Source: a virus. From it: a DNA stretch of 21,153 bases. The notes below the pieces were generated by a model that was given only the letters and a program-made list of their open reading frames with translations, made no database searches and was not told where the DNA came from. Below are positions 1,771-18,559 of this stretch, one piece after another. Made by a program: the position numbers and the translations under genes. The stretch is taken from IMG/VR virus record IMGVR_UViG_3300026551_000007, positions 1-21,153 of that record; one strand, 5' to 3'. The stretch's first letter is position 1. Each line of letters starts with the position of its first letter.

Positions 1771-2001
1771 ATGGCTAAGACCAAAGCGAAAGACAAAGAG
1801 AAAGAGCCCGGGAGCCGTATCGAGAAGATCAGAGCACTACTGAAAACTATGGAAGAACGTCTCGAGACTCAGGGGAAGGTCTCGATGTCCGACTTCATCC
1901 GGTTGACTCAACTGGAACGCGAGTTAGAGCAAGAGGAGCAGCCGGGAGAGGTAATTGTCAGGTGGGAAGACCTAGCGGAGAAACGCGACTCCGGCCGATA
2001 G
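1771..2001 (+). CDS. Small charged protein, candidate terminase small subunit
   Basis: A 76-residue protein with a very basic N-terminus (MAKTKAKDKEKE), then predicted helices rich in Glu/Arg/Lys (RIEKIRALLKTMEERLE and FIRLTQLERELEQEEQ) and an acidic tail. I recognise no family. Its place immediately upstream of, and overlapping by 40 nt, the large terminase gene is where tailed phages carry the small terminase subunit, which binds viral DNA and regulates TerL. It is shorter than most small subunits and lacks an obvious helix-turn-helix, so the call is mostly positional. ATG 1771 was chosen over the in-frame TTG 1720. An intrinsic terminator lies just upstream. Confidence 0.55.
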   Translation: MAKTKAKDKEKEPGSRIEKIRALLKTMEERLETQGKVSMSDFIRLTQLERELEQEEQPGEVIVRWEDLAEKRDSGR

Positions 2002-3275
2002 CATACAGCCCACTTCCATCGCAACGAAAGTTTCACGATTCGCCGGCGAGGTTTAAAGGGTTTTCGGGGCCGATCGGGTCGGGGAAGAGCCAGGCGCTTT
2101 GTCAGGAGGCGATCAAGCTCAGTTACTTGAATCCTGGGCGGCAGGGATTGGTCGGAGCCCCGACGTATCCGATGTTGCGCGACGCGACGCTGACGAGTTT
2201 TTTGGAAGTCTTGGGAGCGAACCAGCTTCCTTACGAGTTCAACAAGGCCGAGTCCGTGCTGGTGATGAAAGACACCAGATCGCGGATCTATTTTCGCGCG
2301 GTAGACGAATTCGAGCGGCTGCGGGGCACGAATCTGGCGTGGTTCGGGCTGGATGAGCTGACTTACACGGCGGAGGAAGCCTGGCTGCGGCTGGAGGGAC
2401 GTTTGCGCGATCCGCAAGCGAACCGATTGTGCGGCTTTGCGGTGTGGACGCCGAAAGGTTTCGATTGGGTTTATCGCAGATTCATCCGGGATCGAGTGGA
2501 TGGCTATCAGGTAGTCGTCGCGAGGCCATACGAAAACCGGTATGTGCTGGACAAGGTTCCGGATTTTTACGACCGGCTGAAGGGCAGTTACGAAGCCAAG
2601 TTTTTTGAGCAAGAGGTACTGGGCGAGTATCTGAACGTCCAGGCCGGCACGGTGTATCACGCTTTCAAACGGGAGCGGAACATGGCAGTTTTGCAGTTGG
2701 ATCCGGGTTTGCCGCTGTTTTGGGCGCTGGATTTCAACGTGGACCCGATGTGTTCGATTGTGGCGCAGAAAAAGGAAAACGAAGTGCGGGTTCTGGACGA
2801 GATTGTGCTCGGCAGGGCCAGCACTCACGACGCCTGCGAGGAATTCCATGCGCGATATCCGAATCATCAAGCCGGTGTGGTGATCTATGGCGATGCTTCG
2901 GGCCAGAGGCTGCAGACGGCGGGAACGACGGACTACCAGATCATCAAGGAGTACTTCCGGCGAACGGCGTACGGCAATTTGAAGTTTCGGATACCGCGGG
3001 GCAATCCGTGCGTGCGCGAGCGAATCGCTCTGGTGAATTCGAAGCTGTTCTCGGCTGGCGAAGAAACGCAGTTGTACGTGGATCCGCGGTGTAAGGGGCT
3101 GATCATGGACTTCGAAGAAGTGACGTTTAAGCCGGACAGTATTGTGATCGATAAAGAGAAAGATTCCAAGCGGACTCACTTGTCGGACGCGTTGGGTTAC
3201 TTGATTTGGCAGGAGTGCAGACAGCAAAAGGTGATTTTTGGCGAGCAAGACAGACCGCTGCGAGGAATCGGGTGA
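1962..3275 (+). CDS. terL: Phage terminase large subunit (ATPase/nuclease)
   Basis: A 437-residue DNA-packaging motor that translocates DNA into the prohead and cuts it. Walker A is GPIGSGKS (36-43). Walker B with catalytic Glu is WFGLDE (127-132). The C-terminal RNase H-like nuclease shows Asp257 in ALDFNVD, Asp311 in VIYGDASG and Asp409 in THLSDALGY, the usual three acidic positions. Length and spacing are normal for TerL of the Terminase_6C type. The start GTG 1962 is preceded by GGGAGAGG at a good distance and overlaps the previous gene; no ATG precedes the ATPase core. All key residues are present, so the motor looks functional. Confidence 0.95.
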   Translation: MGRPSGETRLRPIAYSPLPSQRKFHDSPARFKGFSGPIGSGKSQALCQEAIKLSYLNPGRQGLVGAPTYPMLRDATLTSFLEVLGANQLPYEFNKAESVLVMKDTRSRIYFRAVDEFERLRGTNLAWFGLDELTYTAEEAWLRLEGRLRDPQANRLCGFAVWTPKGFDWVYRRFIRDRVDGYQVVVARPYENRYVLDKVPDFYDRLKGSYEAKFFEQEVLGEYLNVQAGTVYHAFKRERNMAVLQLDPGLPLFWALDFNVDPMCSIVAQKKENEVRVLDEIVLGRASTHDACEEFHARYPNHQAGVVIYGDASGQRLQTAGTTDYQIIKEYFRRTAYGNLKFRIPRGNPCVRERIALVNSKLFSAGEETQLYVDPRCKGLIMDFEEVTFKPDSIVIDKEKDSKRTHLSDALGYLIWQECRQQKVIFGEQDRPLRGIG

Positions 3276-3359: not shown

Positions 3360-3368
3360 GTCGAGGCG

Positions 3369-4775
3369 ATGGCTGAGATGATTACGGGAAAGAACGGGTT
3401 CGACATCAATCAGGAACATCCGGAGTATGCCGCGCGGCGCGCGACATGGCGGCAGTACAGAGACCTGTACGCGGGCGGCGAGCAGTTCAAGGCGAATGCG
3501 GACCAGTATCTAATACCGCGGCAGAAAGAGCCGGGGGACGTCTATGCCGAGCGGCTACGCCGGAGCTTTTACGAGAACTATATCGGCTCCATCGTGGACT
3601 GGTATGCGGCGACGCTTTTCCGGCGGGAGCCGGTGATCGCGTTCGAAGGCCGGAACGAGCGCGCGAAGAAGTTCTTCGGGGAGTTCACGGAAGATTGCGA
3701 TTTAAAGGGCGGGAGTTTGACGGAGTTCTTCCGGCGGCAATTCATTGAAACGTTGGTTTGTGGAAAGAGTTACGTTCTGATCGACTTTCCGCGCCAGAAC
3801 AGTCCGGCGGGAACACGTGGGGAAGAAGACGAACGCGGAGCCTCGAGGGCTTACCTGGTTGGGTACACGGCGGACGAACTTATCAACTGGAGTCATGACG
3901 AGCACGGGCATTACGCGTGGGTGGTGCTGCGAACGCGGAGTCTGAAGAAGGAAGAGATCGAGGACAGCGCGTGGGCGAAGCAGACGCGTTGGGTGTACTA
4001 CGACAAAGAGAACTACCGGGTCTACGAGCAGATGGAGAACGGCTCGGGCGGCGGCGCCATTGAAATTGTCGCGGAGGGGCGGCACGGTCTAGCGAAGCAG
4101 TCGCGTGTGCCACTAGTGGATCTGCGAGTTTCCGAGGGACTTTGGCTTCTAAACAAGGCGGGCACGCTGCAACTGGAGCATTTCAACAAGTCGAATGCGC
4201 TGGGATGGGCGCTGACCATGGGGCTTTTTGCAATGCCGGTGGTGTACTCGGAGCGGGACTGGAACCAGGTGATGGGCGAGTCGTACTACATCCAGCTTGG
4301 TCCTCAGGATCGCTTCGGGTGGACGGAGCCGGAGGGGCACGTATATCAGATCGCGGCCGACAACCTGACGAGATTGCAGGAAGAGATCTATCGCGTTTGC
4401 TACGTGACGCACGCGGGCGGGGCTCTGGGAGGGAATAGCAGCCAATCCGGTCTGAGCAAGCAACGCGATTACGCGATCACGCAGGAGGTGCTGCGGGCGT
4501 ACGGAGACGCGTTGAAGGACACCATGAAGCGGGCGCTGCGGGCGATCGAGGCGGCCCGGGAAGACGGTGTGAGCATCGATGTTTCGGGCATGGATGAGTT
4601 CGACATAGGCGATTTCGGCACCGAACTGGAGGACGCGGAGAGGCTGCTGAATCTGGGAATCGATTCAACAACGCTGAAGAAGCAGGTGTTCAAGAAACTC
4701 GCCTTCCAGTTTCTGTGCGATGTGCGGCAGGAAGTGAAAGACAGGATCGGGCGGGAGATCGATCAAGGGAAGTGA
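3369..4775 (+). CDS. Phage portal protein (DUF4055-like)
   Basis: A 468-residue protein filling the slot directly after terL. The N-terminus HPEYAARRATWRQYRDLYAG, then YLIPRQKEPGDVYAERLRRS and YIGSIVDWYAATLFRREP, matches the pattern of DUF4055/portal-type proteins, which form the dodecameric ring through which DNA enters and leaves the head and which binds TerL. The middle part is acidic and mixed alpha/beta, and the C-terminus is helical (MKRALRAIEAAREDG), as expected for a portal. ATG 3369 has GAGG very close upstream; ATG 3378, three codons on, is an alternative. Slightly shorter than many portals but with no sign of breakage. Confidence 0.85.
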   Translation: MAEMITGKNGFDINQEHPEYAARRATWRQYRDLYAGGEQFKANADQYLIPRQKEPGDVYAERLRRSFYENYIGSIVDWYAATLFRREPVIAFEGRNERAKKFFGEFTEDCDLKGGSLTEFFRRQFIETLVCGKSYVLIDFPRQNSPAGTRGEEDERGASRAYLVGYTADELINWSHDEHGHYAWVVLRTRSLKKEEIEDSAWAKQTRWVYYDKENYRVYEQMENGSGGGAIEIVAEGRHGLAKQSRVPLVDLRVSEGLWLLNKAGTLQLEHFNKSNALGWALTMGLFAMPVVYSERDWNQVMGESYYIQLGPQDRFGWTEPEGHVYQIAADNLTRLQEEIYRVCYVTHAGGALGGNSSQSGLSKQRDYAITQEVLRAYGDALKDTMKRALRAIEAAREDGVSIDVSGMDEFDIGDFGTELEDAERLLNLGIDSTTLKKQVFKKLAFQFLCDVRQEVKDRIGREIDQGK

Positions 4776-4789: not shown

Positions 4790-5353
4790 ATGGAAGAGAC
4801 GAAGACGGATGAAACCGAATTGCGCTCCGTGATTCGAGGAGTGATTGAGGAGTTTGTGCGAGCCGAGCAGGTGAAGGTGGAGCCTGCATACAAGGTCGAG
4901 CTGATCGAGGAGCGCAAGCGGCGCGAGGACCTGGAGCGGCGACTGAACGATCTAGTTCAGGAAAATCAGCGCAGCCGGCAGATCGCGGAAGAGGCGGAGC
5001 GAAGCTCGTCGGTTCGGGCGGAGCTGCAAAGGCTGGGTGTGGCCAAAGTCGACTTGGCTTATCGAGTTGTCAAGGACGACATCCAGCGCGCGGAAGACGG
5101 GCGGCTGGTAGCCAAGAGCGGCCAGAACGAACTGGCAGTGCGGGATTACCTGACGCAATTCGTACAAGAGAATCCAGAGCTGTTGCCGGCGCGCATAACG
5201 GGCGGCTCGGGTATGGGATCGGGGCCGAAGATGGCTCCGAGTTCGGGTGGACTGGATCTGGAGAAAATTCGGCCGGGCATGAATCCGGACGATCTGGAGA
5301 AGATTCGCCAAGAGATCTCGCGGGTAGCCAGTCAGACTCTGCGAGGTCTTTGA
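4790..5353 (+). CDS. Putative capsid scaffolding protein
   Basis: A 187-residue, highly charged protein. Residues about 35-75 are a likely coiled coil (KVELIEERKRREDLERRLND, then EEAERSSSVRAELQR). A Gly/Ser/Met-rich linker (GGSGMGSGPKMAPSSGG) leads to a short C-terminal helix, DLEKIRQEISRVASQTLRG. A coiled coil plus flexible linker plus basic C-terminal helix, placed between portal and coat, is the hallmark of internal scaffolding proteins that guide coat assembly and then leave. A perfect AGGAGG precedes ATG 4790 with good spacing, suggesting strong translation. No protease domain is fused or adjacent, consistent with a P22-like head that is not proteolytically matured. Confidence 0.8.
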   Translation: MEETKTDETELRSVIRGVIEEFVRAEQVKVEPAYKVELIEERKRREDLERRLNDLVQENQRSRQIAEEAERSSSVRAELQRLGVAKVDLAYRVVKDDIQRAEDGRLVAKSGQNELAVRDYLTQFVQENPELLPARITGGSGMGSGPKMAPSSGGLDLEKIRPGMNPDDLEKIRQEISRVASQTLRGL

Positions 5354-5429: not shown

Positions 5430-6341
5430 ATGCCAGCAATTACATCAGCAAATATCGCGAATGCGATAGTGAAGTTAGTAGCAGTAGACGCACTTCCAGC
5501 GCTCGTAGGCAACCTGGTGATGGGCAACTTAGTCAACCGGGACTACGAACCTACACTGGCGCAGGCTGGGGACACGGTGAACGTGCCGATACCCCCGACG
5601 CTTATCGCCAACAATCTTGCGGAGGGGGGCACGGTTCAGACGCAGAATCCCAGTCTGGGAAACGCGCAAATCGTGCTGAACACGCATGCGGAGGCGACGT
5701 TTCAGATTCCGGACGTGACGAAGGTTCTCGCGGTACCGGATCTTCTGAAGTTGTACATGCAGCCGGCGGTGGTGGCATTGGCGGAGCGAATCGAGACAGA
5801 CCTGCTAGGGTTGTACTCGCAATTCACCGCGAACGGGTCGGTCGGGGTGCCGGGTGTGCCGCTGACCGAAGCCGTTGTCGACTCGGCGGAAACGTCGCTG
5901 TTCCAGGCAAAGGTGCCGGGCAGCTTGAGTAAATATCTGGTGGTTGATCCGGGCACTTACTCGGCGTTGAGGCAAATTCCCCGTTTTAGCGAATACTACA
6001 CGGCAGGCGAAGCGGGGCTGCGGGCCCTGGTGGACGGAGCGGTTGGAAAGCTGAAGGACTTCTTCGTCTTTCGGTCGCAGTTCGTGGCAAAGACGGGAAG
6101 CGGGCCGGCTACAACTCACAATGTGGCGTTTGCGCGCGATGCGATGGGGCTGGTAGTCCGCAGGCTGCCCCAGCCGTTGCCTGGGACGGGGGCGATTGCC
6201 GAGTACGCAGAGATGGGGAACTTTGGGATTCGCGTGGTAATGAGCTATCAACCCAGCACGCTGGCTCAGCAGTTCACGGTGGATGTGCTGTATGGCGCGG
6301 CTGTTCTTCGCAACACGTTCGGTGTGCACGTGGAGAGCTAG
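5430..6341 (+). CDS. Major capsid (coat) protein, P22 gp5-like
   Basis: A 303-residue protein right after the scaffold, as expected for the coat protein. It starts MPAITSANIANAIVKLVAV, then RDYEPTLAQAGDTVNVPIPP, a beta-rich stretch and ERIETDLLGLYSQ, the long spine-helix region seen in P22-type coats, and ends with a beta-strand-rich P-domain-like tail (FGIRVVMSYQPSTLAQQFTV). It should form the icosahedral shell with an HK97-like fold. An AG-rich ribosome-binding stretch (5411-5422) precedes ATG 5430. There is no N-terminal delta domain long enough to be cleaved, in line with a separate scaffold. Downstream is a 196-nt structured gap. Confidence 0.85.
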   Translation: MPAITSANIANAIVKLVAVDALPALVGNLVMGNLVNRDYEPTLAQAGDTVNVPIPPTLIANNLAEGGTVQTQNPSLGNAQIVLNTHAEATFQIPDVTKVLAVPDLLKLYMQPAVVALAERIETDLLGLYSQFTANGSVGVPGVPLTEAVVDSAETSLFQAKVPGSLSKYLVVDPGTYSALRQIPRFSEYYTAGEAGLRALVDGAVGKLKDFFVFRSQFVAKTGSGPATTHNVAFARDAMGLVVRRLPQPLPGTGAIAEYAEMGNFGIRVVMSYQPSTLAQQFTVDVLYGAAVLRNTFGVHVES

Positions 6342-6537: not shown

Positions 6538-6864
6538 ATGGACTTGAGAGTGTTCTATCAAAAGCTGCGGAAGATCGAGCAGGAAATTGCGGACCCGCAT
6601 GTGGTTGTGGTCAGTAATGAGACCTCGGATGGAGGGCGGGCGGGCCAGAAGTCCGAAGTGTCTCGGAGCATCGCGGCGAGGTTGATTCTGGAGGGACGGG
6701 CACGTTTAGCTGTGCCTGAGGAAACCGCGGAGTACCGCAGCGCGGTGGAGCAGGCGCGGCAGGATGCCGAGCAGAGAGCGATGGCACAGAAGATCCAGGT
6801 GAACGTAATGTCGGAAGCTGATTTTCGCTCGCTGAAAGGCGCTCCGCGGCCGGAGAAGCGCTAG
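6538..6864 (+). CDS. Small protein of unknown function in the head-gene region
   Basis: A 108-residue protein with no family I recognise. It has a helical N-terminus (FYQKLRKIEQEIAD), a short beta stretch (PHVVVVSNETSDGG) and then a helix with a conserved-looking pattern (KSEVSRSIAARLILEGRARL), ending in a charged tail. It has an excellent AGGAGGGG ribosome-binding site ahead of ATG 6538 and sits between coat and adaptor, where phages often encode decoration, spike or minor head proteins. No signal peptide or membrane segment is visible. The positional inference is that it is a head accessory protein; a regulatory role is equally possible. Confidence 0.7.
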   Translation: MDLRVFYQKLRKIEQEIADPHVVVVSNETSDGGRAGQKSEVSRSIAARLILEGRARLAVPEETAEYRSAVEQARQDAEQRAMAQKIQVNVMSEADFRSLKGAPRPEKR

Positions 6865-6881: not shown

Positions 6882-7649
6882 ATGGCCCTATTCACGGACG
6901 GACCAATCAATGGGACGACGGACCTCCAGAATTATGAAAACGCCATCCTCGACGTCGCCAGCACGGAGAAGATCGACCTTTCCGGAAAAATCGCGCTGGC
7001 GCAGGACGAGATTGCGAGCGAGCTGACGCTATTCTTGCTGCGGAGGCTTCCCTTGCGCGATTTTCAATGGACGCTGCGGCGCAGCGTTGGAGTAAGCGAC
7101 GTCGCGGTGACTGCATCGTTACGGCAGTGGCACGCTCACAAGGCGCTGGCTCTGGTTTATCGTGACGCGTTCAACAGTCAACTGAACGACCGGTACCGAA
7201 GCAAGTGGAAGGAGTATGAGCAACTGGCCAAGACAAGCTCACAGAACTATTTTCAAATCGGCGTGGGACTTGTGGCGGGTCCTATTCCGAAAGCGGCGGT
7301 CCCGCTGGTGGCGACACTGCCGGGAGCGGGACCGGCCGCGACTTATTACGTGGCGGTGGCGTGGCTGAACCAGGCGGGACAGGAGGGCGGCGCGAGCGAC
7401 ACGGCGCAAATCAGTACTTCGAACGGGCAACAGCTCGTGGTCGAGGCTCAAACCCCTCCGGCCAACGTCACGGGCTGGAACGCGTATGTCGGGAACGCGC
7501 CGGATACTATCAGTCTTCAAAACGCCGGTCCAATCGCAGCCGGCAGCTCGTGGACCATGCCGGTGGGGCTGAAACGAGGCAGGCGGCCGGGACAGGGCCA
7601 GCAGCCGACTTCGTTTCTAGTAGATCAGCATGTGATGGAGAGGGGTTAG
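6882..7649 (+). CDS. Head-tail adaptor-like protein with an FN3/Ig-like C-terminal domain
   Basis: 255 residues in two parts. Residues 1 to about 140 are helical (ALAQDEIASELTLFLLRRLP; SLRQWHAHKALALVYRDAFN; RSKWKEYEQLAK), resembling gp6-like connectors that dock under the portal. Residues about 150-240 are a beta-rich module with the pattern ATYYVAVAWLNQAGQEGGAS ... VTGWNAYVG, matching FN3/Ig-like domains decorating phage structural proteins; a related module is in the hub protein near its residues 740-855. Such domains often bind cell-surface carbohydrate weakly. The start ATG 6882 has GGAG at 6864-6867, rather far. The adaptor call is from position plus helical make-up. Confidence 0.7.
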   Translation: MALFTDGPINGTTDLQNYENAILDVASTEKIDLSGKIALAQDEIASELTLFLLRRLPLRDFQWTLRRSVGVSDVAVTASLRQWHAHKALALVYRDAFNSQLNDRYRSKWKEYEQLAKTSSQNYFQIGVGLVAGPIPKAAVPLVATLPGAGPAATYYVAVAWLNQAGQEGGASDTAQISTSNGQQLVVEAQTPPANVTGWNAYVGNAPDTISLQNAGPIAAGSSWTMPVGLKRGRRPGQGQQPTSFLVDQHVMERG

Positions 7650-7653: not shown

Positions 7654-8151
7654 GTGGCGCAAGTTGGAAGCCTAACCACGAAGAAGCTGGCGGGAATTTT
7701 GGGCGCCAGCGAAGGCGTGCCCGGCGCGGTAGCGGCTCTGTGCGCGATGCAGAACGTGTCGCTGCCGGCGATTTCGGTGCAGCAGATTATCGCGCAGAAT
7801 GCAGCGGCAGATTTATCCGAGCGAAGCACGGCAACCAAATATCCGCTCATCTACGTGTATTGCAGCAAGGTGGTCAATCAGCTCCGGGAGAAGTTCCGGA
7901 AGTTTTCCGGAGACGCCCAGATGGTGGTGGAGGCCCGAGTATCGCAGGACCGGCTGGAGGAGATGGAAACGCACGTTCAGTTTTACGTGGATGCGATTAC
8001 ACAGGTCCTGGACAACAACCGGGGCGATTGGGGCGATGGAGTTTTTTATGGCGGAGGTTATGAAGTGACGTACGGCGGTGTAAAGCACGGCGGGCGCAAT
8101 TTCATACAGATCGCCAAAGTGTCTTTCGTTTTGGAGATCAGCACGGATTAA
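7654..8151 (+). CDS. Probable tail terminator / head-tail joining protein
   Basis: 165 residues, mixed alpha/beta: an N-terminal helical part (TTKKLAGILGASEGVPGAVA), then strands and helices (KYPLIYVYCSKVVN; FSGDAQMVVEARVSQDRLEE; HVQFYVDAITQVLDNN) and a beta-rich end (YEVTYGGVKHGGRNFIQIAKV). Length, fold pattern and position between the adaptor and tail tube fit the tail terminator, which caps the tail tube and joins it to the head. GTG 7654 is the start, 4 nt after the preceding stop, with GAGAGGGG (7636-7643) as the ribosome-binding site. I cannot tell terminator from head-completion protein by sequence alone. Confidence 0.65.
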   Translation: MAQVGSLTTKKLAGILGASEGVPGAVAALCAMQNVSLPAISVQQIIAQNAAADLSERSTATKYPLIYVYCSKVVNQLREKFRKFSGDAQMVVEARVSQDRLEEMETHVQFYVDAITQVLDNNRGDWGDGVFYGGGYEVTYGGVKHGGRNFIQIAKVSFVLEISTD

Positions 8152-8152: not shown

Positions 8153-9322
8153 ATGTCGTACGTATCATCGAATGAAAATCGTTTCTACGTGGCTCTGGAA
8201 CAGAGTTACGGCAACGCGGCCGCCGTCACGGACGGGAATCGCATTCCGGCGGTGAAGCTGACCGCCAAGCAGCGGCTTGAAAAGGTCCAGCGGAAGGACA
8301 AGACGGGTTCCAGAACATTCGCTGGAAATCCGAGCGGTCTTCGAAAGGAGACGAGCTTTGAACTGAAGACCTACCTGACGAACTGGGCCGATCAAACCAG
8401 GCAGCCCGCGTACGGTCCTTTGTTTCAAGCGTGTCTGGGAAGCGCTGCGCTGCTTTGGGGCGGGGGGACGGTGGCGTCGGCAACGGATCCTTCCCGGATC
8501 GCATTCACGACGCCGCACGGCCTGACGCCGGGGCAGGCGGTGACGAACGGCGGGGAGATACGTTTTGCGGCCGCAATCGTCGACGATCATACGATTCTGC
8601 TCAATGCGCCATTCACAGAGTCGCCAGCAGCCGGCTCACTGGTCGGGCGCTCGGCTGTGTACACGCCGGCGAGAGATTTAAAGAGCGTGACGATTTTCGA
8701 CTACTGGAGTCCGGGAACTTCAGTGCAGAGGATCCTTTGCGGCGCTGCACTGGACAGGCTGACGGTGAAGGTAAACGGAGATTTCCACGAGTTCAGTTTC
8801 GCGGGCATGGGGCGGGATTTGGTGGACAGCTCGAGCTTCGAAGGCGGCCAGAGCGGGCTGACGGCGTTTCCTCCGGAGCCTACGGTGGGGGCGATCAACT
8901 ACTCGATTATTCCCGGCCACCTGGGTCAAGTGTGGCTGGGGAGCACGCCCGAGCGTTTTTTTACTCTGACGAGCGCGGAAGTGGCATTCGAGAACAACAT
9001 CGATTTGCGGGCGCGGGAGTTCGGCTCGGATCTACCGGCCGCAATTTCGCCGGGTTTGCGCATGGTGACGCTGGACATGAACTTGTATCAGCAGGACGAT
9101 GCGGCGACGAAGGCGCTGTATCAGGCGGCGCGGCAGAAATCGCCGATCAGCGTGATGCTCCAACTTGGCCAGCAGGAGGGGCAGCTATTCGGTATTTACC
9201 TGAAGAGCGTTATGCCTGAAGTGCCGGAATTCGACGATGCGGAAAAGCGGCAGCAGTGGCAATTCGGGAACTGCCGGGCGCAGGGGAGCATTGACGATGA
9301 AATTTTTGTGGCGTTTGGGTAG
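8153..9322 (+). CDS. Major tail tube protein
   Basis: 389 residues starting 1 nt after the previous stop. It opens with SYVSSNENRFYVALEQSYGN, then IPAVKLTAKQRLEKVQRKDK and ELKTYLTNWADQ, and later has VTIFDYWSPGTSVQRILCGA, VKVNGDFHEFSFAGMGRDLV and a C-terminal beta/helix pattern (EVAFENNIDLRAREFGSDLP ... LDMNLYQQDDAATKALYQAA), consistent with tube-forming proteins of non-contractile tails. Residues about 105-165 (GTVASATDPSRIAFTTPHGL ... ILLNAPFTESPAAGSLVG) look like an inserted surface Ig-like or hub-like domain. No sheath gene follows, so the tail should be siphovirus-like. It overlaps the next start by 26 nt. Confidence 0.75.
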   Translation: MSYVSSNENRFYVALEQSYGNAAAVTDGNRIPAVKLTAKQRLEKVQRKDKTGSRTFAGNPSGLRKETSFELKTYLTNWADQTRQPAYGPLFQACLGSAALLWGGGTVASATDPSRIAFTTPHGLTPGQAVTNGGEIRFAAAIVDDHTILLNAPFTESPAAGSLVGRSAVYTPARDLKSVTIFDYWSPGTSVQRILCGAALDRLTVKVNGDFHEFSFAGMGRDLVDSSSFEGGQSGLTAFPPEPTVGAINYSIIPGHLGQVWLGSTPERFFTLTSAEVAFENNIDLRAREFGSDLPAAISPGLRMVTLDMNLYQQDDAATKALYQAARQKSPISVMLQLGQQEGQLFGIYLKSVMPEVPEFDDAEKRQQWQFGNCRAQGSIDDEIFVAFG

Positions 9323-9722
9323 CAAGAGCAACAGGCGGACCGGTTCGAAGGACGGAGTATCGTACGAGAGCGTCCTGACAGTTCGCTCCAAGTCGATGCC
9401 GGGCGTCACGTTTGTGCTGAATCGCGTGTCGTTTGGGCGGCGCATGGAGCTGAGCAGGCAAATTCGTGAAATCAGCCGGCGCGGCGAGTTTCTCGAGGCC
9501 GGGAGCCAGGTGCAAGAAAAGATCGAGGCCAACATTTTGGCGCAGGAGGTCGATGGGATGTACTTGCGTTGGGGGCTGGTGAGCATCGAGGGCATGAGAA
9601 TCGATGGCGAGCCTGCTAGCGCCGGGCAGCTAATCGACAGAGGGCCGGAAGAATTGACGCGAGAGATCGTCGGCGCGATCAAGGAGCAGTGCGGGCTCAG
9701 CGATACCGAACGAAAAAATTGA
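9297..9722 (+). CDS. Tail assembly chaperone, unshifted product (lambda gpG-like role)
   Basis: 141 residues from ATG 9297, 26 nt inside the tail tube gene, with CAGGGGAG (9280-9287) upstream. The protein is basic at the start, then mixed (SYESVLTVRSKSMPGVTFVL; RRMELSRQIREISRRGEF), and ends in helices up to LSDTERKN. Its place between tube and tape-measure genes is that of the tail assembly chaperone, which coats the tape measure while the tube polymerises. The last codons before the TGA are on a slippery A-run, and an overlapping frame continues at -1 for 110 codons, the classic gpG/gpGT arrangement. No sequence similarity to lambda gpG is claimed. Confidence 0.8.
   Translation: MKFLWRLGSKSNRRTGSKDGVSYESVLTVRSKSMPGVTFVLNRVSFGRRMELSRQIREISRRGEFLEAGSQVQEKIEANILAQEVDGMYLRWGLVSIEGMRIDGEPASAGQLIDRGPEELTREIVGAIKEQCGLSDTERKN
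9713..9719 (+). promoter_or_regulatory. Probable programmed -1 frameshift site (A AAA AAT)
   Basis: The heptamer reads A AAA AAT in the upstream frame (codons AAA 9714-9716, AAT 9717-9719), directly before TGA 9720-9722. It fits the X XXY YYZ rule; after slipping back one base both tRNA sites can read AAA. The -1 frame is open from here to 10048. The position, at the overlap of the two tail chaperone frames, matches the conserved frameshift of long-tailed phages. Confidence 0.8.
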
Positions 9723-10051
9723 TTGTCGCATTCCATTTTCAGTTTGCCAACCAAGCCGCGTGGAAGTGCGACGGGTGCCGGAAGAGCGGCTTGGAGAGAA
9801 AACGGCGGTGTGGATGGATCGAGGGGACAGCATCCACGCCACCGGTGGTGGTCTGGGCGCGAAATAGCGTATCGGTGACGAGCTGCCCGACGTCGTACAT
9901 TACATCCGAGAGCATCGCGCTGTTGGAGGAGTTCCATGCGTGGAAACTTTTTGGAGCGACGGACTTGTACAGGCTGCCGGCTCGTTTGGTGGACGCGATT
10001 TTCATCCTGGAGAATGAGCTGAGATTGGAAAGAAACGATGCGCAGAATTGA
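9719..10051 (+). CDS. Tail assembly chaperone, -1 frameshift extension (gpGT-like), Cys4-containing
   Basis: This 110-codon open frame is one base behind the 141-residue chaperone frame and would be joined to it by a -1 shift at 9713-9719, giving a fusion of about 251 residues. It has no convincing start of its own: GTG 9689 has AAGGAG only 2 nt away. The extension contains C-x2-C-x10-C-x25-C (starting CDGC, then RRCGW, then TSCPTSYIT), which looks like a zinc-binding ribbon, followed by a helical end (IALLEEFHAWKLFGATDLYR; LVDAIFILENELRLER). By analogy the longer form would recruit the tape measure to the tube. It overlaps the next gene by 14 nt. Confidence 0.75.
   Translation: MIVAFHFQFANQAAWKCDGCRKSGLERKRRCGWIEGTASTPPVVVWARNSVSVTSCPTSYITSESIALLEEFHAWKLFGATDLYRLPARLVDAIFILENELRLERNDAQN
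9751..9794 (+). other. 9-bp stem-loop downstream of the frameshift site
   Basis: CCAAGCCGC (9751-9759) and GCGGCTTGG (9786-9794) pair perfectly around a 26-nt loop. The stem begins 31 nt after the slippery heptamer, further than the usual 5-9 nt for a stimulatory structure, so any role in frameshifting is doubtful. Confidence 0.4.
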
Positions 10052-10719: not shown

Positions 10720-11079
10720 ATGAGCGATTTTCCTGCCTTGAAGACGGGCGCCGTGCTGCAGTATCCGGCGCAAAAGGGGTTGGGCTTCTGTACCGATGTT
10801 CTGCGCTTCGTGGACGGGTCGGAGCAGCGATTTCGAGAGTATTCGACGCCACTACGGCGCTGGATGATCCGTCTGGACCTGCTGGACGACGGCGAATTGC
10901 AGCTGCTCCGCGAGTTTTTCTTAACCATGTCTGGCGCGGCGGGAAGCTTTGCGTTCACGGATCCCAGGGACGGCTCTAAATACGCCGATTGTTCTTTCGA
11001 GGGCGAAACGATGGACGGAGCGCTATTGGATGAAGGCAAGGCGAGAACCGGTCTGACCGTCCGAGAGAACCGAGACTGA
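10720..11079 (+). CDS. DUF2460-like distal tail protein, first copy
   Basis: 119 residues, starting 1 nt after the tape-measure stop, so probably translationally coupled. The pattern FPALKTGAVLQYP at the N-terminus, RWMIRLDLLDDGELQLLREF in the middle and AGSFAFTDPRDGSKYADCSF near the end matches DUF2460-type proteins, which form the distal ring joining tail tube and baseplate (the RcGTA g12 position). The next gene carries the same pattern, so the two are tandem paralogues. No extra domain is present here; this is the bare fold. Confidence 0.75.
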   Translation: MSDFPALKTGAVLQYPAQKGLGFCTDVLRFVDGSEQRFREYSTPLRRWMIRLDLLDDGELQLLREFFLTMSGAAGSFAFTDPRDGSKYADCSFEGETMDGALLDEGKARTGLTVRENRD

Positions 11080-11080: not shown

Positions 11081-11875
11081 ATGCTCTATTACCCACAGCT
11101 CATGAGTGGCTCGGTGTGTCAATTTCCCGTCCGCTGGCGGGCAACGCTCAGAACCGCTTCGAACGAACTGCCCGGTGGCGCGAGCATCCGGATGAGAGAT
11201 CCCGGCGCCGGAACGATTCGCTGGCAACTCGAGTATGCGAGCTTGACGGACGACGAGCAGTCGGCCATGGTGCAATTATTTGAGGCGGCGGAGGGCCGGC
11301 TCGAAACTTTCACGTTTCTCGATCCCACGAACAATCTTTTGATGTGGAGTGAAGATTTGACCAAGCCGGTGTGGACCAGCGATCCGCTACTGCAACTGGT
11401 GGGCGGCGGCGCGGATCCATTTGGCGGGACTGGGGCGATACAGATAACCAATACCGCACAGACGGCGCAGCACGTGGTGCAGAGCTTGGGCGGCGCGAGC
11501 TGGTTCCAATACTGCTTCAGCGTTTATCTGCGCAGCGATTCACCTTCGACAGTTCAATTGATGCAATCGAGCAGCGTCGAGACTTCCCGCACCACAGCCG
11601 CCGTGGGCTCAACTTGGACCAGATTTGTGAAATCCGGAAGCCTGACCGTCAAGCAGGACGGCACCAGTTTTGGCGTTGAGTTACCGCCGGGTGTGAGAAT
11701 CAGCGCCTTCGGAGCACAAGTGGAGGCACAAATTGCTCCCGGATCCTACAAGAAGACGACCGACCACGCAGGTGTGTACCCGAAGACTCGATTTGAATCG
11801 GATTCATTTCCGATCACCACAGATGCGCGAAATCAGAATTCCTGCGGGGTGAACCTTGTGAGCAGCCTGGCGTGA
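11081..11875 (+). CDS. DUF2460-like distal tail protein, second copy, with inserted carbohydrate-binding-like module
   Basis: 264 residues. Residues 1-83 repeat the plan of the preceding gene: YPQLMSGSVCQFP, RWQLEYASLTDDEQSAMVQL and LETFTFLDPTN. The closing strands, which follow directly in the first copy, appear only at about 236-264 (TRFESDSFPITTD ... CGVNLVSSLA). Between them, 84-235 is a beta-sandwich-like module opening NNLLMWSEDLTKPVWTSDPL and closing FGAQVEAQIAPGSYKKTT, a pattern common in phage fibre and spike receptor-binding or CBM-like domains. So the protein appears to be a distal tail ring subunit displaying a ligand-binding domain. It starts 1 nt after the previous stop. Confidence 0.75.
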   Translation: MLYYPQLMSGSVCQFPVRWRATLRTASNELPGGASIRMRDPGAGTIRWQLEYASLTDDEQSAMVQLFEAAEGRLETFTFLDPTNNLLMWSEDLTKPVWTSDPLLQLVGGGADPFGGTGAIQITNTAQTAQHVVQSLGGASWFQYCFSVYLRSDSPSTVQLMQSSSVETSRTTAAVGSTWTRFVKSGSLTVKQDGTSFGVELPPGVRISAFGAQVEAQIAPGSYKKTTDHAGVYPKTRFESDSFPITTDARNQNSCGVNLVSSLA

Positions 11876-11890: not shown

Positions 11891-14800
11891 ATGGCTACGA
11901 TCAAAGATCTGAAGGAGCAGGAAGTTCCCGGCACGCCGCTGTTTCTGTTCGAATGCAAACTGAAGTCGGGCGACGTGCAACGCTGGAGCACTCACAGCGT
12001 TACGGTGGATGGACAGGCTTATCTGGCGCGCGTGTTGAAGCACAACCTGTTCGAACTTACCTCCTCAGCTGAAGCGGCGACCGACGGAGTATCGAAGATT
12101 TCGATCACGCTGGCGAACGCAGATGCATTCTTTTCGGCGATTGAACGGAATATCGGCTGGAAGGGCGCGCAGGTCACGGTCAAGTTTCTCTTTTTCGATT
12201 TGAAGAACAGCGCCGCGATGTCGGAGAGCGACGTTGCCTTTCGGGGCATTGCCAATCCTCCGGACGAATCGGATGAGTCCACGCTGCGGCTGAGTTTTGT
12301 GAGCCGGCTGAATCTTCAAAGAATCTTTCTGCCGGAGATTCGGATTCAAAAGCGGTGCCCGTGGGCATTTCCCACAACTGCGGCGCGACGGCAGGAGGCA
12401 GTGAGCGGCGGGGCGAAGGGAGAATTCTCACCGTTGTACCGCTGCGGGTACTCAGCCGACCAAACCGGTGGGGTTGGTAGTCTGAATGGCGCCACGCCGT
12501 ACAACACGTGCGACTTTACGCGCGCGCAATGCGAACAGCGCGGGATGTTCGACGCGGATAGCGCGAACCATGTTACGCGCAGATTTGGCGGCATCGAATT
12601 CGTACCGTCGTCAGTGATTGTTCGCAGCTATGGCGAGAAGGGGGCACACATTTCGACGGCGCTGGATAACCAGGCTCGATATAACGACTTCGTTCCGTTA
12701 CTGTATGGGACGGGCTGGTACCAGCCTCCGATCGTGTTTGCGCGGAACGACGGGAACCTGACGCGCACGGAAGTGCTGCTCGGAGCCGGAGAGATCACGG
12801 GCGTCGTAAAGGTAATCGTAAACGGTATCGAGATACCGGTTGGGATTTCCGGGACGAACATGACGGCGACGGGCTGGTACAACGTCGTGAGTCTTGGAGG
12901 CAGGTCAGGCAACTTCAATACCGATTTCAGCGATTCTGCCGGACATCCACTGGGCGACCCGTACGGAAGCATGGCGCTGCTGTCGGTGGTGGTACCCAAT
13001 CGAATCTCCGACGGCCGCTCGCTGCCGGACATCAAGGTGCTGATCCAAGGGCTGAAGCTAGCGCGGTTTGATTCGAGCCGCGCTCACACGGATGATGCGT
13101 TCACAAACAATCCCGCGTGGGTCCTGTTGGACGTGCTACGGCGCAGCGGATGGAGTCTGGATGAAATCGATCTGGCAAGTTTTGCCTCGGTGGCGCAACG
13201 TTGCGACGCTCTGGTACACGCGGTGGACCTGAATGGGAATGACACATTGATTCCCAGGTACCAATGCAACCTGCTGCTGACCAAGCGCCGCAGCGCGGGC
13301 GACGTTGTGCGCGGGATCCGAAACGCGTGCGCGCTGTATCTGATCTTCAGCCCGGCGGGGCTGCTTCAGTTGAATGCGGAAGACACATTGGCATTGCAGC
13401 AACCTGGCAAGCCAGCGGGCAGCAACAGCACCGAAGCTCTCCATGGCGGGTGGCCGGCGTACGAGTTCGGCGATAACGCATTTTCGGGCATCCTTCGGAG
13501 AGAGAATGGCGCGGTTACCCTTCGGGTATCGTCGCGCAGCGCGGCCGATACGCCGAACCGATACACGGTTGAGTTTCAAGATGATTTCAACGAATACCAG
13601 CAAGACAGCCTCTCGTTGGTGGATATTGACGATTCGTTGCTGTGCGGGCAGGACGTCACGACGTCGCTTGCCGCGCTCGGTCTGCCGAACTTCGATCAGG
13701 CGGCGAGAGCGACAGCCTTGCAGCTTTATAAGTCTGTACGCGGCAATACGTATGTCGAGTTCGAGACCAGCGTAAAGGCTGTGGGCCTGAAACCGGGTGA
13801 TCTGATCACGCTCACTTACGCAAAGGAGGGGTTTGATCGACAGCCTTTCCGGATCTTACGGATTGCGCCTGGAATGAACTTCCGAACGGCGGTGATCACT
13901 GCGCAGATTCATGACGACGAATGGTACAACGTTGTCAACTCGGGTGGGGCCGTTCTGGGAAGGCAGCCTGGGTTTGAGGTTGGGCTGCCGCGTCCGCTTG
14001 TGGGTGGCGTTTTCGACAGCGATGGCGTCGCGCAGTTTGCGATAGGGGAGTCGTCGGCGGCGAGCAGCGATGGAAGCATCACCACCACGCTGTCGGTTGG
14101 GTTTGGTGTCCCGGAGAAGCCCGCTGCGAGCAGCGCGGGCATACCGTTGGTGGCGCTCAATCCGCAGGTGGATACAACCGGTGGGAACCTGGCAGGCGGA
14201 CAAACGTTGTACTACGGCGTCAGCGCAGTGGACGCGAACGGTGCGGAGGGCGGGCTATCATTCACGGTCAAGGCCAGTATCCCGGCGGGAACAAACACCA
14301 GCCAAGTTACTCTTCGAAGCCTGAGCTTTTCATCAACGGCCAGCGGTTTTCATGTTTATCGCGGCACGACACCGGCGCAATTGTTACGGATCGCGGAGAA
14401 CGTCGTGATCGGCGCACAATTTGTGGATACCGGCGCTCAGCCAGAGCTGAAGGGTCCGCCAGACTACAACTACGACCACGCGAACTTTTGCTGGCGGCTG
14501 GAACTGCAGCCCGAGGTAAGAGTGAATATCCACTCTCCCACTACGGTTGGCAACTCCAGCCTGAATATGCTCCCGAACGAATTTAACGGAGCAAAAGTGC
14601 GTATTACGAAGGGCCCCGGGGCAGGGCAGGAGCGGACCATTGCTTCCAGCACCGCGACCGTCATCACACTTGCTTTGAAGTGGGACGTTGAGCCTGACGC
14701 AACGAGTTCGTTCTTAGTGGCGGACTCGGCATGGCAATTCGGAGCAACGAGCAATGCATCGCCGGTTTCGTTTGTAGTGCCGAACCGGGACGGCGCGACG

Positions 14801-15811
14801 GTACACGTCTCCGGGCGCGCGGCGAATGTTCGAGACGAGGAGAATGCCTTCGAGTTGTCGCCGCTGACCAGGTGGAGAATCTCCGGCGCGGCGGGGGACA
14901 ATCTGGACGCGGATGTGCCGGGACTGCCGACGTTTGGGATTGCCGTGGCAGGAAGAGGGGGCGTGGAAGTGGCGGCAATCGGCTTCACGTCGTTGGTCAA
15001 TACGCGCACGATCAGCGCGGGAACACTGACGTTGGGCCATTGGAATGAGTTGAACGGGCCATCGACGATCGTTCTGAGTACGGCTATGGCGATCGGCGAC
15101 ACCTCCATGGCACTAGCGATGGCGATTAGCGCGCAGGCAGGCGACTTGGTTCAGATTGAATCGGAAATCGCGGTGGTGCAGCAAGCAGTGAGTAATGCGA
15201 CCACCTGTCAGATGGTTCGGGGTTCGTACGGAAGCAGCGCGGCGACCCACGCAGCGCAGACACCGGTTTATTTCCTGCAGAAGAAAACATTTGTAATGCC
15301 GTTCGCGCGCGACTTTTTTGGAAGCCCGGCGAGTGGGAGCTATGCCTATCCAGTGACGAGTGCCGACGTTCGCATAGCAACCGCGGAACTGTTTGTGACT
15401 AACAGCCGTGGCAACAGCGGCGTAGCGAGAAGAGCCTATACGGCCACGACGGACGTTGGGCTGCGGACGCTTTCGGGCGGGCAACTTTCGATTCAAGTGG
15501 AGGGACCGCTCGCGATACAGACCAATGCCGCGCCGCCGCTTTTGGTAGAAAGCGCGCATTCCGTGAAAGACGTTTATGCCGTGGTGAAAGACGCGCCCAC
15601 CGGCGCGCCAATCACACTCAGCGTGACGCAGAACGGTCAGCCTTATTGCCAGCTCACGATTCCGGTGGGCGCAACCATCTCGAACGTTGTGGATGGATTT
15701 GCGCTCGGGCCGCTCCAGGCCAAGGCGCAGATCGGGCTGGATATTACAGGCGTGGCTCAGACGGCGGACAGCACTCCCGGCCGCGATCTTACGGTGACGA
15801 TTCGTTTGTAG
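11891..15811 (+). CDS. Tail hub / tip protein (DUF2163-like + J-like), 1306 aa, with Cys4 cluster
   Basis: A giant multidomain tail-tip protein. Residues 1-150 are a beta-rich hub domain like DUF2163/phage BR0599-type proteins. Cys156 (KRCPWAF), Cys185 (YRCGYS), Cys207 and Cys214 (CDFTRAQC) form a cluster at the position where lambda gpL and the RcGTA hub carry an iron-sulfur cluster. About 225-690 is a J-like core (GGIEFVPSSVIVRSYGEKG; NPAWVLLDVLRRSGWSLDEI). About 738-856 is FN3-like (TLYYGVSAVDANGAEGG), related to the adaptor's C-terminal module. Around 900-940 is a GPGAGQERTI ... ALKWDVEPDATSSF module, and near 1087-1127 an IESEIAVVQQ...VRGSYGS motif. It would plug the tail and contact the cell. 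ATG 11891 follows the previous stop by 15 nt. Confidence 0.8.
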   Translation: MATIKDLKEQEVPGTPLFLFECKLKSGDVQRWSTHSVTVDGQAYLARVLKHNLFELTSSAEAATDGVSKISITLANADAFFSAIERNIGWKGAQVTVKFLFFDLKNSAAMSESDVAFRGIANPPDESDESTLRLSFVSRLNLQRIFLPEIRIQKRCPWAFPTTAARRQEAVSGGAKGEFSPLYRCGYSADQTGGVGSLNGATPYNTCDFTRAQCEQRGMFDADSANHVTRRFGGIEFVPSSVIVRSYGEKGAHISTALDNQARYNDFVPLLYGTGWYQPPIVFARNDGNLTRTEVLLGAGEITGVVKVIVNGIEIPVGISGTNMTATGWYNVVSLGGRSGNFNTDFSDSAGHPLGDPYGSMALLSVVVPNRISDGRSLPDIKVLIQGLKLARFDSSRAHTDDAFTNNPAWVLLDVLRRSGWSLDEIDLASFASVAQRCDALVHAVDLNGNDTLIPRYQCNLLLTKRRSAGDVVRGIRNACALYLIFSPAGLLQLNAEDTLALQQPGKPAGSNSTEALHGGWPAYEFGDNAFSGILRRENGAVTLRVSSRSAADTPNRYTVEFQDDFNEYQQDSLSLVDIDDSLLCGQDVTTSLAALGLPNFDQAARATALQLYKSVRGNTYVEFETSVKAVGLKPGDLITLTYAKEGFDRQPFRILRIAPGMNFRTAVITAQIHDDEWYNVVNSGGAVLGRQPGFEVGLPRPLVGGVFDSDGVAQFAIGESSAASSDGSITTTLSVGFGVPEKPAASSAGIPLVALNPQVDTTGGNLAGGQTLYYGVSAVDANGAEGGLSFTVKASIPAGTNTSQVTLRSLSFSSTASGFHVYRGTTPAQLLRIAENVVIGAQFVDTGAQPELKGPPDYNYDHANFCWRLELQPEVRVNIHSPTTVGNSSLNMLPNEFNGAKVRITKGPGAGQERTIASSTATVITLALKWDVEPDATSSFLVADSAWQFGATSNASPVSFVVPNRDGATVHVSGRAANVRDEENAFELSPLTRWRISGAAGDNLDADVPGLPTFGIAVAGRGGVEVAAIGFTSLVNTRTISAGTLTLGHWNELNGPSTIVLSTAMAIGDTSMALAMAISAQAGDLVQIESEIAVVQQAVSNATTCQMVRGSYGSSAATHAAQTPVYFLQKKTFVMPFARDFFGSPASGSYAYPVTSADVRIATAELFVTNSRGNSGVARRAYTATTDVGLRTLSGGQLSIQVEGPLAIQTNAAPPLLVESAHSVKDVYAVVKDAPTGAPITLSVTQNGQPYCQLTIPVGATISNVVDGFALGPLQAKAQIGLDITGVAQTADSTPGRDLTVTIRL

Positions 15812-15817: not shown

Positions 15818-18559
15818 ATGGCCGAAATTCTCGAAAAACTGCGTCCGGACCGCGATCTGCAGTGCTACTTCGAGCGGCCCTCCGGGATTGCGGCGCTGAG
15901 TGGAGCCAGTCCGAATGGATTCACTGTTTCCGGAACGTGGCGGCAACAGTTCGATTGGGCAGTGATCGAGTGGAACCGGGACAACGTGTTCGAGCATCCA
16001 GCCTTTCGGTACCTGCCCGACGGGGACCTCAGCGGGTTGACCTTGGCGTACGATGAAACGCGTCTCAACTGCATTCCCATCGACTCCGACTTATATCCAA
16101 CGGTCGATTGGCCGAATCTTCGCGTATGGGCGGATGACGGCACTGGCGAAAAGCTGTACAGAGTGCCACTGAAGAACTACGCCACGCCCATCGAAGGAAG
16201 CTATCAACCGGCTACGGTTCAGTTTCAACTCGGAGGAACTGTAACGGCGGGCGATTATGTCGGACTGGCATTTCTATCCGAGCATTATCCGCACCTGATG
16301 AACGCGGGCGACACGCTGGACTTCGCGATACAAAACATTGTGGCGGGCGTAAATGCGTTTTCGCCGACGATGCGCGCGGTCGGCACCGGAACCACGATCA
16401 CTTTGACGTACATCGGCGCCGGGCAAACTTCCTCGACCAGCACGGCCGGCGCTAATGGCAATCGAATTGGCGTTTACACTTACGTTTCAGGAAGTAAAAC
16501 GGAACAGTGGGACGCGTTGTCAAAGCAGCTCAGCGGGGGAACGTCGCCGTCCAAGTGGCGCCTGGTTTTGCCATTCGCATCGCTGAGCGATCCCATCGTC
16601 GGCCAGATTGCAGCGCATGCAATTCGGAAGATGCGCTGGACGTACTCGGCCGATCTTCAAGCAGGCGCGTTCGTGCGGAGCGAGTTTCAGGTGGTTGTTT
16701 CCAACTGGAGCGTAACGGGATCGGGGCGGACGTATTCAATCGCAGGTCCGGGGAGCAGGCGAATCGAGGACGATGCAAGCGAGGTCGCGTACAGCGGCGC
16801 TTGGAATAGCTCTAGTGGAAATTTTTCCGGTGGGACGATTCACTTCACGAGCACGAATTCCGCGAGCGTAACTTGCCGTTATACATCGATTCAGGCGCAC
16901 AGTTTGTATTTGGGGACGAGGTTTGCTGCGAACGGGACCGTGATTTCAATCTCGGTGGATGGACAGAGCCAGTCAAACTTCAATCTCAACGTGCCGGGAG
17001 AGGATGTCTTGATCAGGAAGCCGTTGGGCCAGCTTGGGCCCGGCACTCACACTGTTGTTGCCACTCATACAGGCAACGCGGGTACATATTTTTATTTCGA
17101 CTTCCTGGAAATCGCGATTCCGACTACAACGCTACCAGTGGAGACTGCGGAAGTGAAGGTGACGCTGGCAACGGATTGGGACACAGACCACTCGATCGCA
17201 CTGGCGCCTGAAAGGACCGCGTGGATGATCGATGCGCTCGGGTTTCATGGGAGGGCGAATCACTATGTCGGCGCACTGTGGTTTTACGAATTGACGCGCG
17301 TTGGCCATCAATACGCGTCGGGTACGATTACGTTCACGGGGTCGCCGGATCCGAACCTGATCACAGAGATTCATATCGGCCGAACGGACCAATCGGCCGG
17401 AACGCAGAACGTCATTGAACATCTGAATCTCATTGGAGATACTGTCGAGACGCTAGCGAAGGCGTTCGAGCTGGAGCTGAATCGAGGTTATACCGCGATT
17501 CGCGCGCAGGCCATTGGGAATCAACTTACGATTTACTCGCGCTCGATGGGGTCCGATGGAAACGCGATTACGCTCGCGACTAGCGCGGCGACTGCCAATC
17601 TCACGATTCAGATTTCAGGCGCCACGCTTGCTGGTGGGACGGATGGCAACTGGCGCACCGACCTGCAGGCGACGCCGCGATTGAATCGCGCCGTTCGAGA
17701 CTGGTGCCAGAGTTTCTATCGCGCACTGAACGCTTACGGCATCGACGTGACTGCTTCCTTCAGCATGGAGCTGCAGCACGGCGATCCATCGCCGGAGGCC
17801 GGCATCGCGCAACGCTATCCAAGCCAGGCTCCGGTGCTGCTCAACACGCCCTCGCTGCAGACAAACTTCTCGCCAGCGAGCACGAACTTCTGGCAGCAGG
17901 TCTACCGGGACATGGCTTCGGTAATGGTTGCGGCGGGTGTGCATCCTTACTTGCAGTTCGGTGAAGTGCAATGGTGGTACTTTCCTTACGACGGCTCCGG
18001 CATGCCGTTTTACGATGCGTACGCCACCAGCACATTCCAAGCGCAGTACGGGCGCCCGCTTACGGTGATCACCAGCAATACAGTGGACCCGCAAACAATC
18101 CCCCAGGAAGCCGCCTTTTTGCCTGGGTTGATCGGTAACTTCACCAACGCAGTGATGAGTTATGTTCGATCGATGTTTCCCGACTGCCGGTTTGAGGTGC
18201 TCTATCCAACGGATGTCAACAACACACCGCTAAACAAGGTGATCAACTATCCGGGCGCGGACTGGACTTCGCAGAAGGTCACATGTCTCAAGACGGAGAG
18301 CTTCACTTATACGTTCAGCCGCGACTTGGACTTGAGCCAGAGCACGATCATGGCCGGCAGCACGAACGGTTTTACTCCATCTCAACGAAGCCACTTAGTT
18401 GGAATCAGCGACGCATCAACCGCGTGGCTGAAGGAGGCGCGGCTAGCGGAGGCGGGCGGGCTGGAGTCCGTGGTGTTGTTCGCGCTGGACCAGTTTTGTC
18501 TGATTGGATATGAACTGCCGTTGTCGACAGGGATGCGCCGCAGCGTTCAACTCGGATAA
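15818..18559 (+). CDS. Tail-tip protein with glycosidase-like TIM barrel and CBM-like domains, 913 aa
   Basis: The last gene of the module, 6 nt after the hub gene. Residues 1-130 are a beta-rich attachment part. About 139-246 and 502-615 are two copies of one domain, each ending in a long strand pair and LSGGT/LAGGT followed by WR. About 325-430 is a jelly-roll-like CBM (SGGTIHFTSTNSASVTCRYT ... FYFDFLEIAIP). A TIM-barrel-like domain seems to start near 465 (AWMIDALGFHGRANHY) and continue at 620-913, with Glu651 in SMELQHGD and Glu716 in QFGEVQWWYF as candidate catalytic residues. Position and barrel recall the RcGTA 'megatron' end protein. It may degrade a surface polysaccharide; activity is unproven. 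Confidence 0.75.
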   Translation: MAEILEKLRPDRDLQCYFERPSGIAALSGASPNGFTVSGTWRQQFDWAVIEWNRDNVFEHPAFRYLPDGDLSGLTLAYDETRLNCIPIDSDLYPTVDWPNLRVWADDGTGEKLYRVPLKNYATPIEGSYQPATVQFQLGGTVTAGDYVGLAFLSEHYPHLMNAGDTLDFAIQNIVAGVNAFSPTMRAVGTGTTITLTYIGAGQTSSTSTAGANGNRIGVYTYVSGSKTEQWDALSKQLSGGTSPSKWRLVLPFASLSDPIVGQIAAHAIRKMRWTYSADLQAGAFVRSEFQVVVSNWSVTGSGRTYSIAGPGSRRIEDDASEVAYSGAWNSSSGNFSGGTIHFTSTNSASVTCRYTSIQAHSLYLGTRFAANGTVISISVDGQSQSNFNLNVPGEDVLIRKPLGQLGPGTHTVVATHTGNAGTYFYFDFLEIAIPTTTLPVETAEVKVTLATDWDTDHSIALAPERTAWMIDALGFHGRANHYVGALWFYELTRVGHQYASGTITFTGSPDPNLITEIHIGRTDQSAGTQNVIEHLNLIGDTVETLAKAFELELNRGYTAIRAQAIGNQLTIYSRSMGSDGNAITLATSAATANLTIQISGATLAGGTDGNWRTDLQATPRLNRAVRDWCQSFYRALNAYGIDVTASFSMELQHGDPSPEAGIAQRYPSQAPVLLNTPSLQTNFSPASTNFWQQVYRDMASVMVAAGVHPYLQFGEVQWWYFPYDGSGMPFYDAYATSTFQAQYGRPLTVITSNTVDPQTIPQEAAFLPGLIGNFTNAVMSYVRSMFPDCRFEVLYPTDVNNTPLNKVINYPGADWTSQKVTCLKTESFTYTFSRDLDLSQSTIMAGSTNGFTPSQRSHLVGISDASTAWLKEARLAEAGGLESVVLFALDQFCLIGYELPLSTGMRRSVQLG

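Follow-up and report, generated by a model that had tools for sequence, protein, structure and literature searches.

Gene Transfer Agents

Gene transfer agents (GTAs) are defined by six features (PMC9662315). Three of these are structural proteins derived from caudoviricetes, full endogenisation, and mostly vertical inheritance with host co-diversification. The other three are the packaging of mostly random host DNA, a head too small for the element's own genome, and the delivery of DNA.

RcGTA and the RcGTA-like alphaproteobacterial GTAs (Rhodogtaviriformidae) are vertically inherited and have the late gene order TerS-TerL-portal-coat-neck-tube-short tape measure-DUF2460-hub. The RcGTA tape measure is ~216 aa (PMC7296036), and its small terminase (TerS) has no N-terminal DNA-binding domain (PMC6854486). 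The operon of CcGTA, from Caulobacter crescentus, is under an activator-dependent promoter, and its terminators are overcome by anti-termination (PMC11150451). The GTAs of Brachyspira (BhGTA) and Bartonella (BaGTA) are independent domestications in other lineages, as is argued below for the present locus, without sequence comparison. Acidobacteriota are among the commonest soil bacteria. To our knowledge, no GTA-like element has been described in this phylum; the sequence-only reading of the locus had said the same, and the open-access PMC literature searched holds none.

A Structural Module between Host Genes

The window, meaning the whole stretch of DNA analysed, is a 21,153-base IMG/VR virus entry. 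It contains a module of ~16.8 kb with all genes on one strand and no interruption. In PHROGs and Pfam searches of the module ORFs, the products are those of packaging, head, and tail only, with assignments for TerL, the portal, a P22-like coat, a minor tail/tube protein, DUF2460, a J-like hub, and a tail-sheath TIM barrel. The same searches recognised no gene for an integrase, a repressor, replication, or lysis among the module ORFs. There is no tRNA within the window, and no convincing direct (att-like) repeat lies near either border, the borders having been scanned separately and not against each other. A functional temperate prophage is rejected on these grounds: the module is without integrase, replication and lysis genes or convincing att repeats. 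The features, all on the plus strand, are as follows.

732..1589, +, left host neighbour, sugar-phosphate isomerase/AP-endonuclease-2-like TIM barrel (Pfam PF01261, E=6e-32; ATG-led 285-aa form)
1638..1663, +, conserved upstream promoter element (consensus ATaTTt..TTTgTTTTCAAT.A.TTA)
1696..1701, +, -10-like box TGATAA, usually 32-34 nt past the upstream element (model gap 28-30 plus 4)
1728..1760, +, leader terminator-like hairpin GGGCGCTC/GAGCGCCC with T run (-22 kcal/mol), between promoter and first start codon
1771..2001, +, first gene, in the small-terminase position, 76 aa (ATG 1771 most likely start)
1962..3275, +, large terminase TerL (phrog_2 E=3e-37, PF03237)
3369..4775, +, portal protein (phrog_145 E=4e-49)
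4790..5353, +, probable scaffold, 187 aa (position between portal and coat; kept in 20/20 genomes; no family match)
5430..6341, +, P22-like major coat protein, 303 aa (phrog_283 E=3e-39, PF11651 E=4e-17)
6538..6864, +, conserved 108-aa protein with no function assigned (present in 18/20 genomes)
6882..7649, +, head-completion/adaptor candidate, 255 aa (phrog_8040 head closure, weak, E=9e-4; kept in 20/20)
7654..8151, +, tail terminator/neck candidate, 165 aa (by position; kept in 20/20)
8153..9322, +, tail tube/minor tail protein (phrog_290 E=3e-16)
9237..9722, +, tail assembly protein (kept in 19/20 genomes, mostly 121-128 aa; core probably from ~9350)
9689..10051, +, overlapping 120-aa tail assembly protein (conserved; overlapping ORF arrangement retained)
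10038..10718, +, short tape measure protein, 226 aa (phrog_3779, weak)
10720..11079, +, DUF2460 distal tail protein, short copy (PF09343 E=2e-12)
11081..11875, +, DUF2460-like distal tail protein with spike-fibre domain (PF09343 below cut-off; NF048003 GTA_spike_fiber 50.8 bits, cut-off 36)
11891..15811, +, tail hub/J-like protein, 1306 aa (phrog_31 E=9e-25, PF13550)
15818..18559, +, non-contractile tail sheath-type TIM-barrel protein, accessory (PF23845 E=7e-18)
18578..19852, +, right host neighbour, Wzt-type ABC ATPase (PF14524 and PF00005)

The order is thus a short first gene, TerL, portal, probable scaffold, P22-like coat, neck genes, tube, and two tail assembly genes, followed by the 226-aa tape measure, two DUF2460-type proteins, the 1306-aa hub, and the tail-sheath-type TIM barrel. 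The sequence-only reading had described a structural-only, same-strand module between host genes, free of integrase, repressor, replication, and lysis genes. Both claims held, the second within the PHROGs and Pfam searches of module ORFs, and every long ORF it named exists on the one strand. It is refined at two points: the first gene most likely starts at ATG 1771 (76 aa), with a conserved promoter element and terminator hairpin ahead of it, and the DUF2460-type genes number two.

Comparison with RcGTA

The module shares the late gene order and vertical inheritance of the RcGTA group, and its tape measure of 226 aa is close in length to that of RcGTA. Its first protein is short and has no recognisable domain, recalling the RcGTA TerS, and homology to TerS is not significant. 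RcGTA has an HK97 coat and a protease, whereas the module has a P22-like coat and a scaffold. The module also differs in phylum and in the absence of an NlpC/P60 gene. The RcGTA-family models TIGR02217 and GTA_megatron score far below cut-off on the module proteins; the only RcGTA-type model above cut-off is the spike-fibre domain, which phage relatives possess as well. Membership of the RcGTA family is rejected on the P22-like coat and on family models that miss or fall below cut-off, and these same results therefore indicate an independent domestication.

The earlier claim of a parallel to RcGTA holds in part, for function and anatomy and not for family membership. Its claim that a scaffold and P22-like coat replace the HK97 protease and coat holds for the coat; the scaffold role is only probable. 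An AlphaFold model of the coat was too poor to use (pLDDT 41).

Three features of the GTA definition are met: structural proteins derived from caudoviricetes, chromosomal endogenisation, and mostly vertical inheritance with host co-diversification. Random packaging of host DNA is inferred, and only indirectly, from the shortness of the first protein, which occupies the place of TerS. The GTA-like candidacy proposed for the locus is supported to this extent, and both random packaging and gene transfer remain inferences.

The GTA-type spike-fibre domain is fused to a DUF2460 protein in modules and phages alike (window 11081-11875; L415, L418, L317).

The First Gene and the Terminase

The first proteins of 21 modules are 75-168 aa long and share a conserved C-terminus (DfirLlqL..E....P.ei.V.W.e). 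The first protein has no Pfam match and no recognisable DNA-binding domain. In the G118 and G788 phages, the protein ahead of TerL is 203-207 aa and is of TerS type by position and appearance. Similarity between the two kinds of protein is not significant (HMM/hhalign, probability 0.3%), so that the module protein can only be inferred to be a truncated TerS. TerL keeps its ATPase and nuclease motifs, which are conserved across 207 relatives. The G052 module is without TerL at this place; no recognisable TerL lies beside the portal at L246, and the gene may have been lost, moved, or replaced.

Distribution and the Recurrent Locus

Coat matches in IMG/VR number at least 599 by pattern, and nearly all are true relatives. 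Of ~215 distinct IMG/VR contigs, all but two are no longer than 21.2 kb. These two, of 48.7 and 49.9 kb, are phage-type, and many of the others are ~16.5 kb. The named-genome relatives of the coat are Bryobacterales.

The coat is found in 182 of 232 genomes of this host order (Bryobacterales, Acidobacteriota), nearly always as a single, unbroken copy, with 76-87% identity across the order. The sample is the order of the isolate Acidobacteriaceae bacterium KBS 96, which itself carries the module, and most of its genomes are MAGs. About one fifth of the order genomes have no coat match; pieces of the hub were found in 5 of 20 such genomes examined, and the remainder may be true losses. A class-level search matched 70 of 299 genomes, of which only G626 and G632 were absent from the order search. 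Both carry further module genes (in G632 the left half only, to the end of the stretch read). The phylum sample yielded order members and distant coats only.

Within 40 kb read around the coat, the TerL-to-hub genes are collinear in 20/20 genomes, TerL of G052 excepted. The hub is 1294-1315 aa in all 20, and the sheath-type TIM-barrel gene occupies its place in 11. Host genes lie on both flanks in 20/20 genomes, near-complete chromosomes included, and host-flanked modules sit on multi-megabase contigs in G001, G078, G134, G135, and G187. A contig artefact or split phage is rejected by this chromosomal context.

The locus in relatives, whose comparison the sequence-only reading had proposed, is recurrent. 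In close relatives (L140/G186, L141, L142, L084, L005, L010, and L012), the left TIM-barrel neighbour is at the same position. The Wzt-type ABC ATPase adjoins the module in distant members, including G003, G005, G007, G008, G052, and G186. Some combination of this gene, a gene matching the ORF at the right end of the window, and an M24 peptidase gene forms the right flank in 9/20 genomes, out to the most divergent, G052. In G186, the nearest genome, both flanks are arranged as in the window. This comparative collinearity supports the module far more strongly than the window alone does.

The coat gene is in two adjacent pieces in G209, G150, G120, G051, and G206, through frameshifts or assembly errors.

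Inheritance and Selection

A ten-protein module tree shares 10 of 17 splits with the rpoB tree, against 0.4 expected by chance and a chance maximum of 4. All nine rpoB splits with support >=0.99 are recovered. Module and rpoB distances are correlated (Mantel r 0.62; permutation maximum 0.32). The rpoB genes of the host tree were chosen by k-mer match, and the main disagreement is G052, which is on a long branch. The sequence-only reading had held that sporadic spread with att sites would count against it; this is not what was found, and the module tracks host phylogeny.

Purifying selection on coat, TerL, and hub had also been put forward as a check. Median pairwise dN/dS is 0.06 for TerL, 0.05 for portal, 0.10 for tube, 0.10 for hub, and 0.15 for coat. 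NG86 medians for the TerL-to-hub genes range from 0.05 to 0.22, and that of the short first gene is 0.36. The pairs are not independent, and the values are indications, not tests. The coat value is oddly high, being above that of TerL although the coat is the most conserved protein. The claim that the long genes are intact, which speaks against simple decay, held on low dN/dS and on full-length genes in relatives; a decaying prophage is rejected by the same measures across 20 genomes.

At many distant genome pairs, coat dS is below 1.2, suggesting constrained synonymous sites.

Phage-Type Relatives

G193 carries the module and, elsewhere, a separate prophage beside tRNA-Thr (C1:824112-888000; L336, L315-L317, L337). 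This prophage is complete and temperate, with an integrase, excisionase, polymerase, helicase, primase, ParB, the late gene order of the module, and a lysozyme. The other phage-type elements are the IMG/VR contigs G787 and G788 and the G118 locus (C144).

These relatives share with the modules the late gene order and the hub and sheath-type proteins, and their coats are 65-72% identical. They differ in a long tape measure and, in the two phages where it was read, a TerS-like protein of 203-207 aa. The integrase, polymerase, primase, and lysozyme set the G193 prophage, the only complete comparator, apart from the modules. Tape measures are 153-270 aa in modules versus 869, 995, and 1145 aa in three phages (1145 by position only). 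Portal-to-hub length is 12.4 +/- 0.4 kb in 22 modules versus 17.4-21.4 kb in three phage-type relatives. The modules are thus separated from the phages by loss of the long tape measure and a shorter first protein, and, against one complete prophage, by having lost the genes for mobility, replication, and lysis.

A six-protein tree places 24 modules against four phage-type elements, each side at 100. It had been stated in advance that the same genes inside a full prophage of close relatives would refute the GTA reading. Related full prophages exist, but in a separate clade. The earlier alternative, a prophage reduced to its late operon or with early genes elsewhere, is disfavoured by comparison with relatives and by chromosomal context. 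When coat and TerL are each given a tree of their own, the phage-type elements stay together, but G626 and G632 adjoin them with weaker support. These two are the first branches among modules and fall outside the order in the rpoB tree. One domestication before the order arose, followed by losses, could account for their placement; transfer into the G626/G632 lineage is not excluded.

The low carbon-per-residue signature of alphaproteobacterial GTAs gave no consistent difference from phage homologues, of which only four were available. Besides its own coat gene, the G193 prophage carries another ~17 kb away that has diverged (L316:1038-1907, minus strand).

The Leader

The window copy of the upstream element reads TTTTCAAAGATTTA at 1650-1663. 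A two-part model, consisting of the 26-bp element and a TGaTAg box at near-fixed spacing, matches 104 of 126 distinct leaders and none in shuffles; it was trained on the same leaders in which it was counted. An independent count of a fixed 14-base core at <=3 mismatches found 44 of 123 leaders against 1.7 expected. The phage-type leaders that could be scored do not match the two-part model.

The exact promoter pattern, searched in 18 genomes, occurs only at the modules' own sites (in 3/18). A looser 26-mer search found 19 further sites outside modules, two of them ahead of groESL. The element as a module-specific signal is rejected, as other host genes such as groESL carry it too, and it therefore looks like a host-type promoter feature.

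Hairpins comparable to that of the window precede the first start codon in 33 of 70 leaders against 5.2 expected, mostly in the window's subclade. The upstream element, -10 box, and leader terminator resemble the CcGTA arrangement. The module terminator is in the leader, unlike in CcGTA, where it follows the first gene, and no relation between the promoter sequences has been shown. Activation plus anti-termination of the operon is inferred by analogy with CcGTA (PMC11150451) and is not shown.

The upstream element precedes groES-groEL in two genomes (L444, L455). Genes for TPR-type proteins (L448, L450, L452) and a probable L,D-transpeptidase (L457, L460) are also downstream of such sites.

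Interpretation

Most probably, the module is the late operon of a phage that was domesticated, is passed down vertically, and acts as a gene transfer agent; proof of particles, of host DNA inside them, and of transfer is lacking. What is shown is that the module occurs order-wide as a single copy at a recurrent locus, that its genes are unbroken and subject to purifying selection, and that it is congruent with the host and distinct from phage relatives. In the proposed mechanism, the upstream element would be the target of a host regulator, and in the window's subclade the whole operon would be switched on once transcription passes the leader terminator. Coat and scaffold would build the head, which the short first protein and TerL may load with host DNA without a specific start site. 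The short tail with its DUF2460/J-type tip would deliver the DNA, and cell lysis would be supplied by genes elsewhere. Against the GTA reading stand the lack of experimental data, the dominance of MAGs, the roughly one fifth of order genomes with no coat match, and the absence of TerL from G052. The split coat genes, a first protein without significant similarity to the phage TerS-like protein, the missing carbon signature, the high coat dN/dS, and the occurrence of the upstream element ahead of other host genes count on the same side.

The strongest rival, itself unlikely, is a domesticated phage particle with another use, such as killing or signalling between kin, or the transport of one specific kind of DNA. 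The evidence for domestication as such is good, and no computed result shows the packaged content; the tail-tip gene at 15818-18559 varies, as a part used in targeting would be expected to. However, the modules retain TerL, portal, scaffold, and coat under constraint, and a tail-only weapon would need none of them; a first protein this short in the place of TerS also speaks against specific packaging. There is very little to favour a mobile satellite or reduced prophage that moves with the help of related full prophages. Such prophages do share a genome with the module in some cases (G193, G118), but the module has no integrase or replication gene, its phylogeny is congruent with that of the host, its neighbours stay the same over deep divergence, and helper-type phages are rare (2 of ~215 contigs >21.2 kb).

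A decaying prophage remnant would explain the presence of late genes only and the few genomes with broken or partial copies. It is highly improbable given low dN/dS in all tested genes, a conserved promoter, and full-length genes in 20/20 genomes, TerL in one excepted. A lytic or temperate phage with its remaining genes on another contig has in its favour the filing of the window as an IMG/VR virus record, and is practically ruled out by host genes on both flanks, here and in larger, even multi-megabase contigs.

The GTA reading can be extended. The module probably represents an undescribed GTA family, independently domesticated from a temperate siphophage with a P22 coat close to the root of Bryobacterales and of a related lineage. 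It is likewise probable, taken jointly, that this family has a host-type promoter with leader termination, is soil-wide, and accounts for hundreds of IMG/VR "viruses" that are copies of it. If so, a whole order has long had machinery for gene transfer that is listed as phage in virus catalogues. The phage-type relatives, among them one complete prophage sharing a genome with the module, would offer a before-and-after view of the path from phage to GTA. The steps seen in that way are loss of mobility, replication, and lysis genes, shortening of the tail, and takeover of the promoter. The presence of the module in isolate KBS 96 makes the GTA idea directly testable.

Two module-bearing records, L184 and L190, are titled Arcobacter and Acidimicrobiia. 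The genome of L190 (G009) groups with Bryobacterales by rpoB, and its title is therefore probably wrong.
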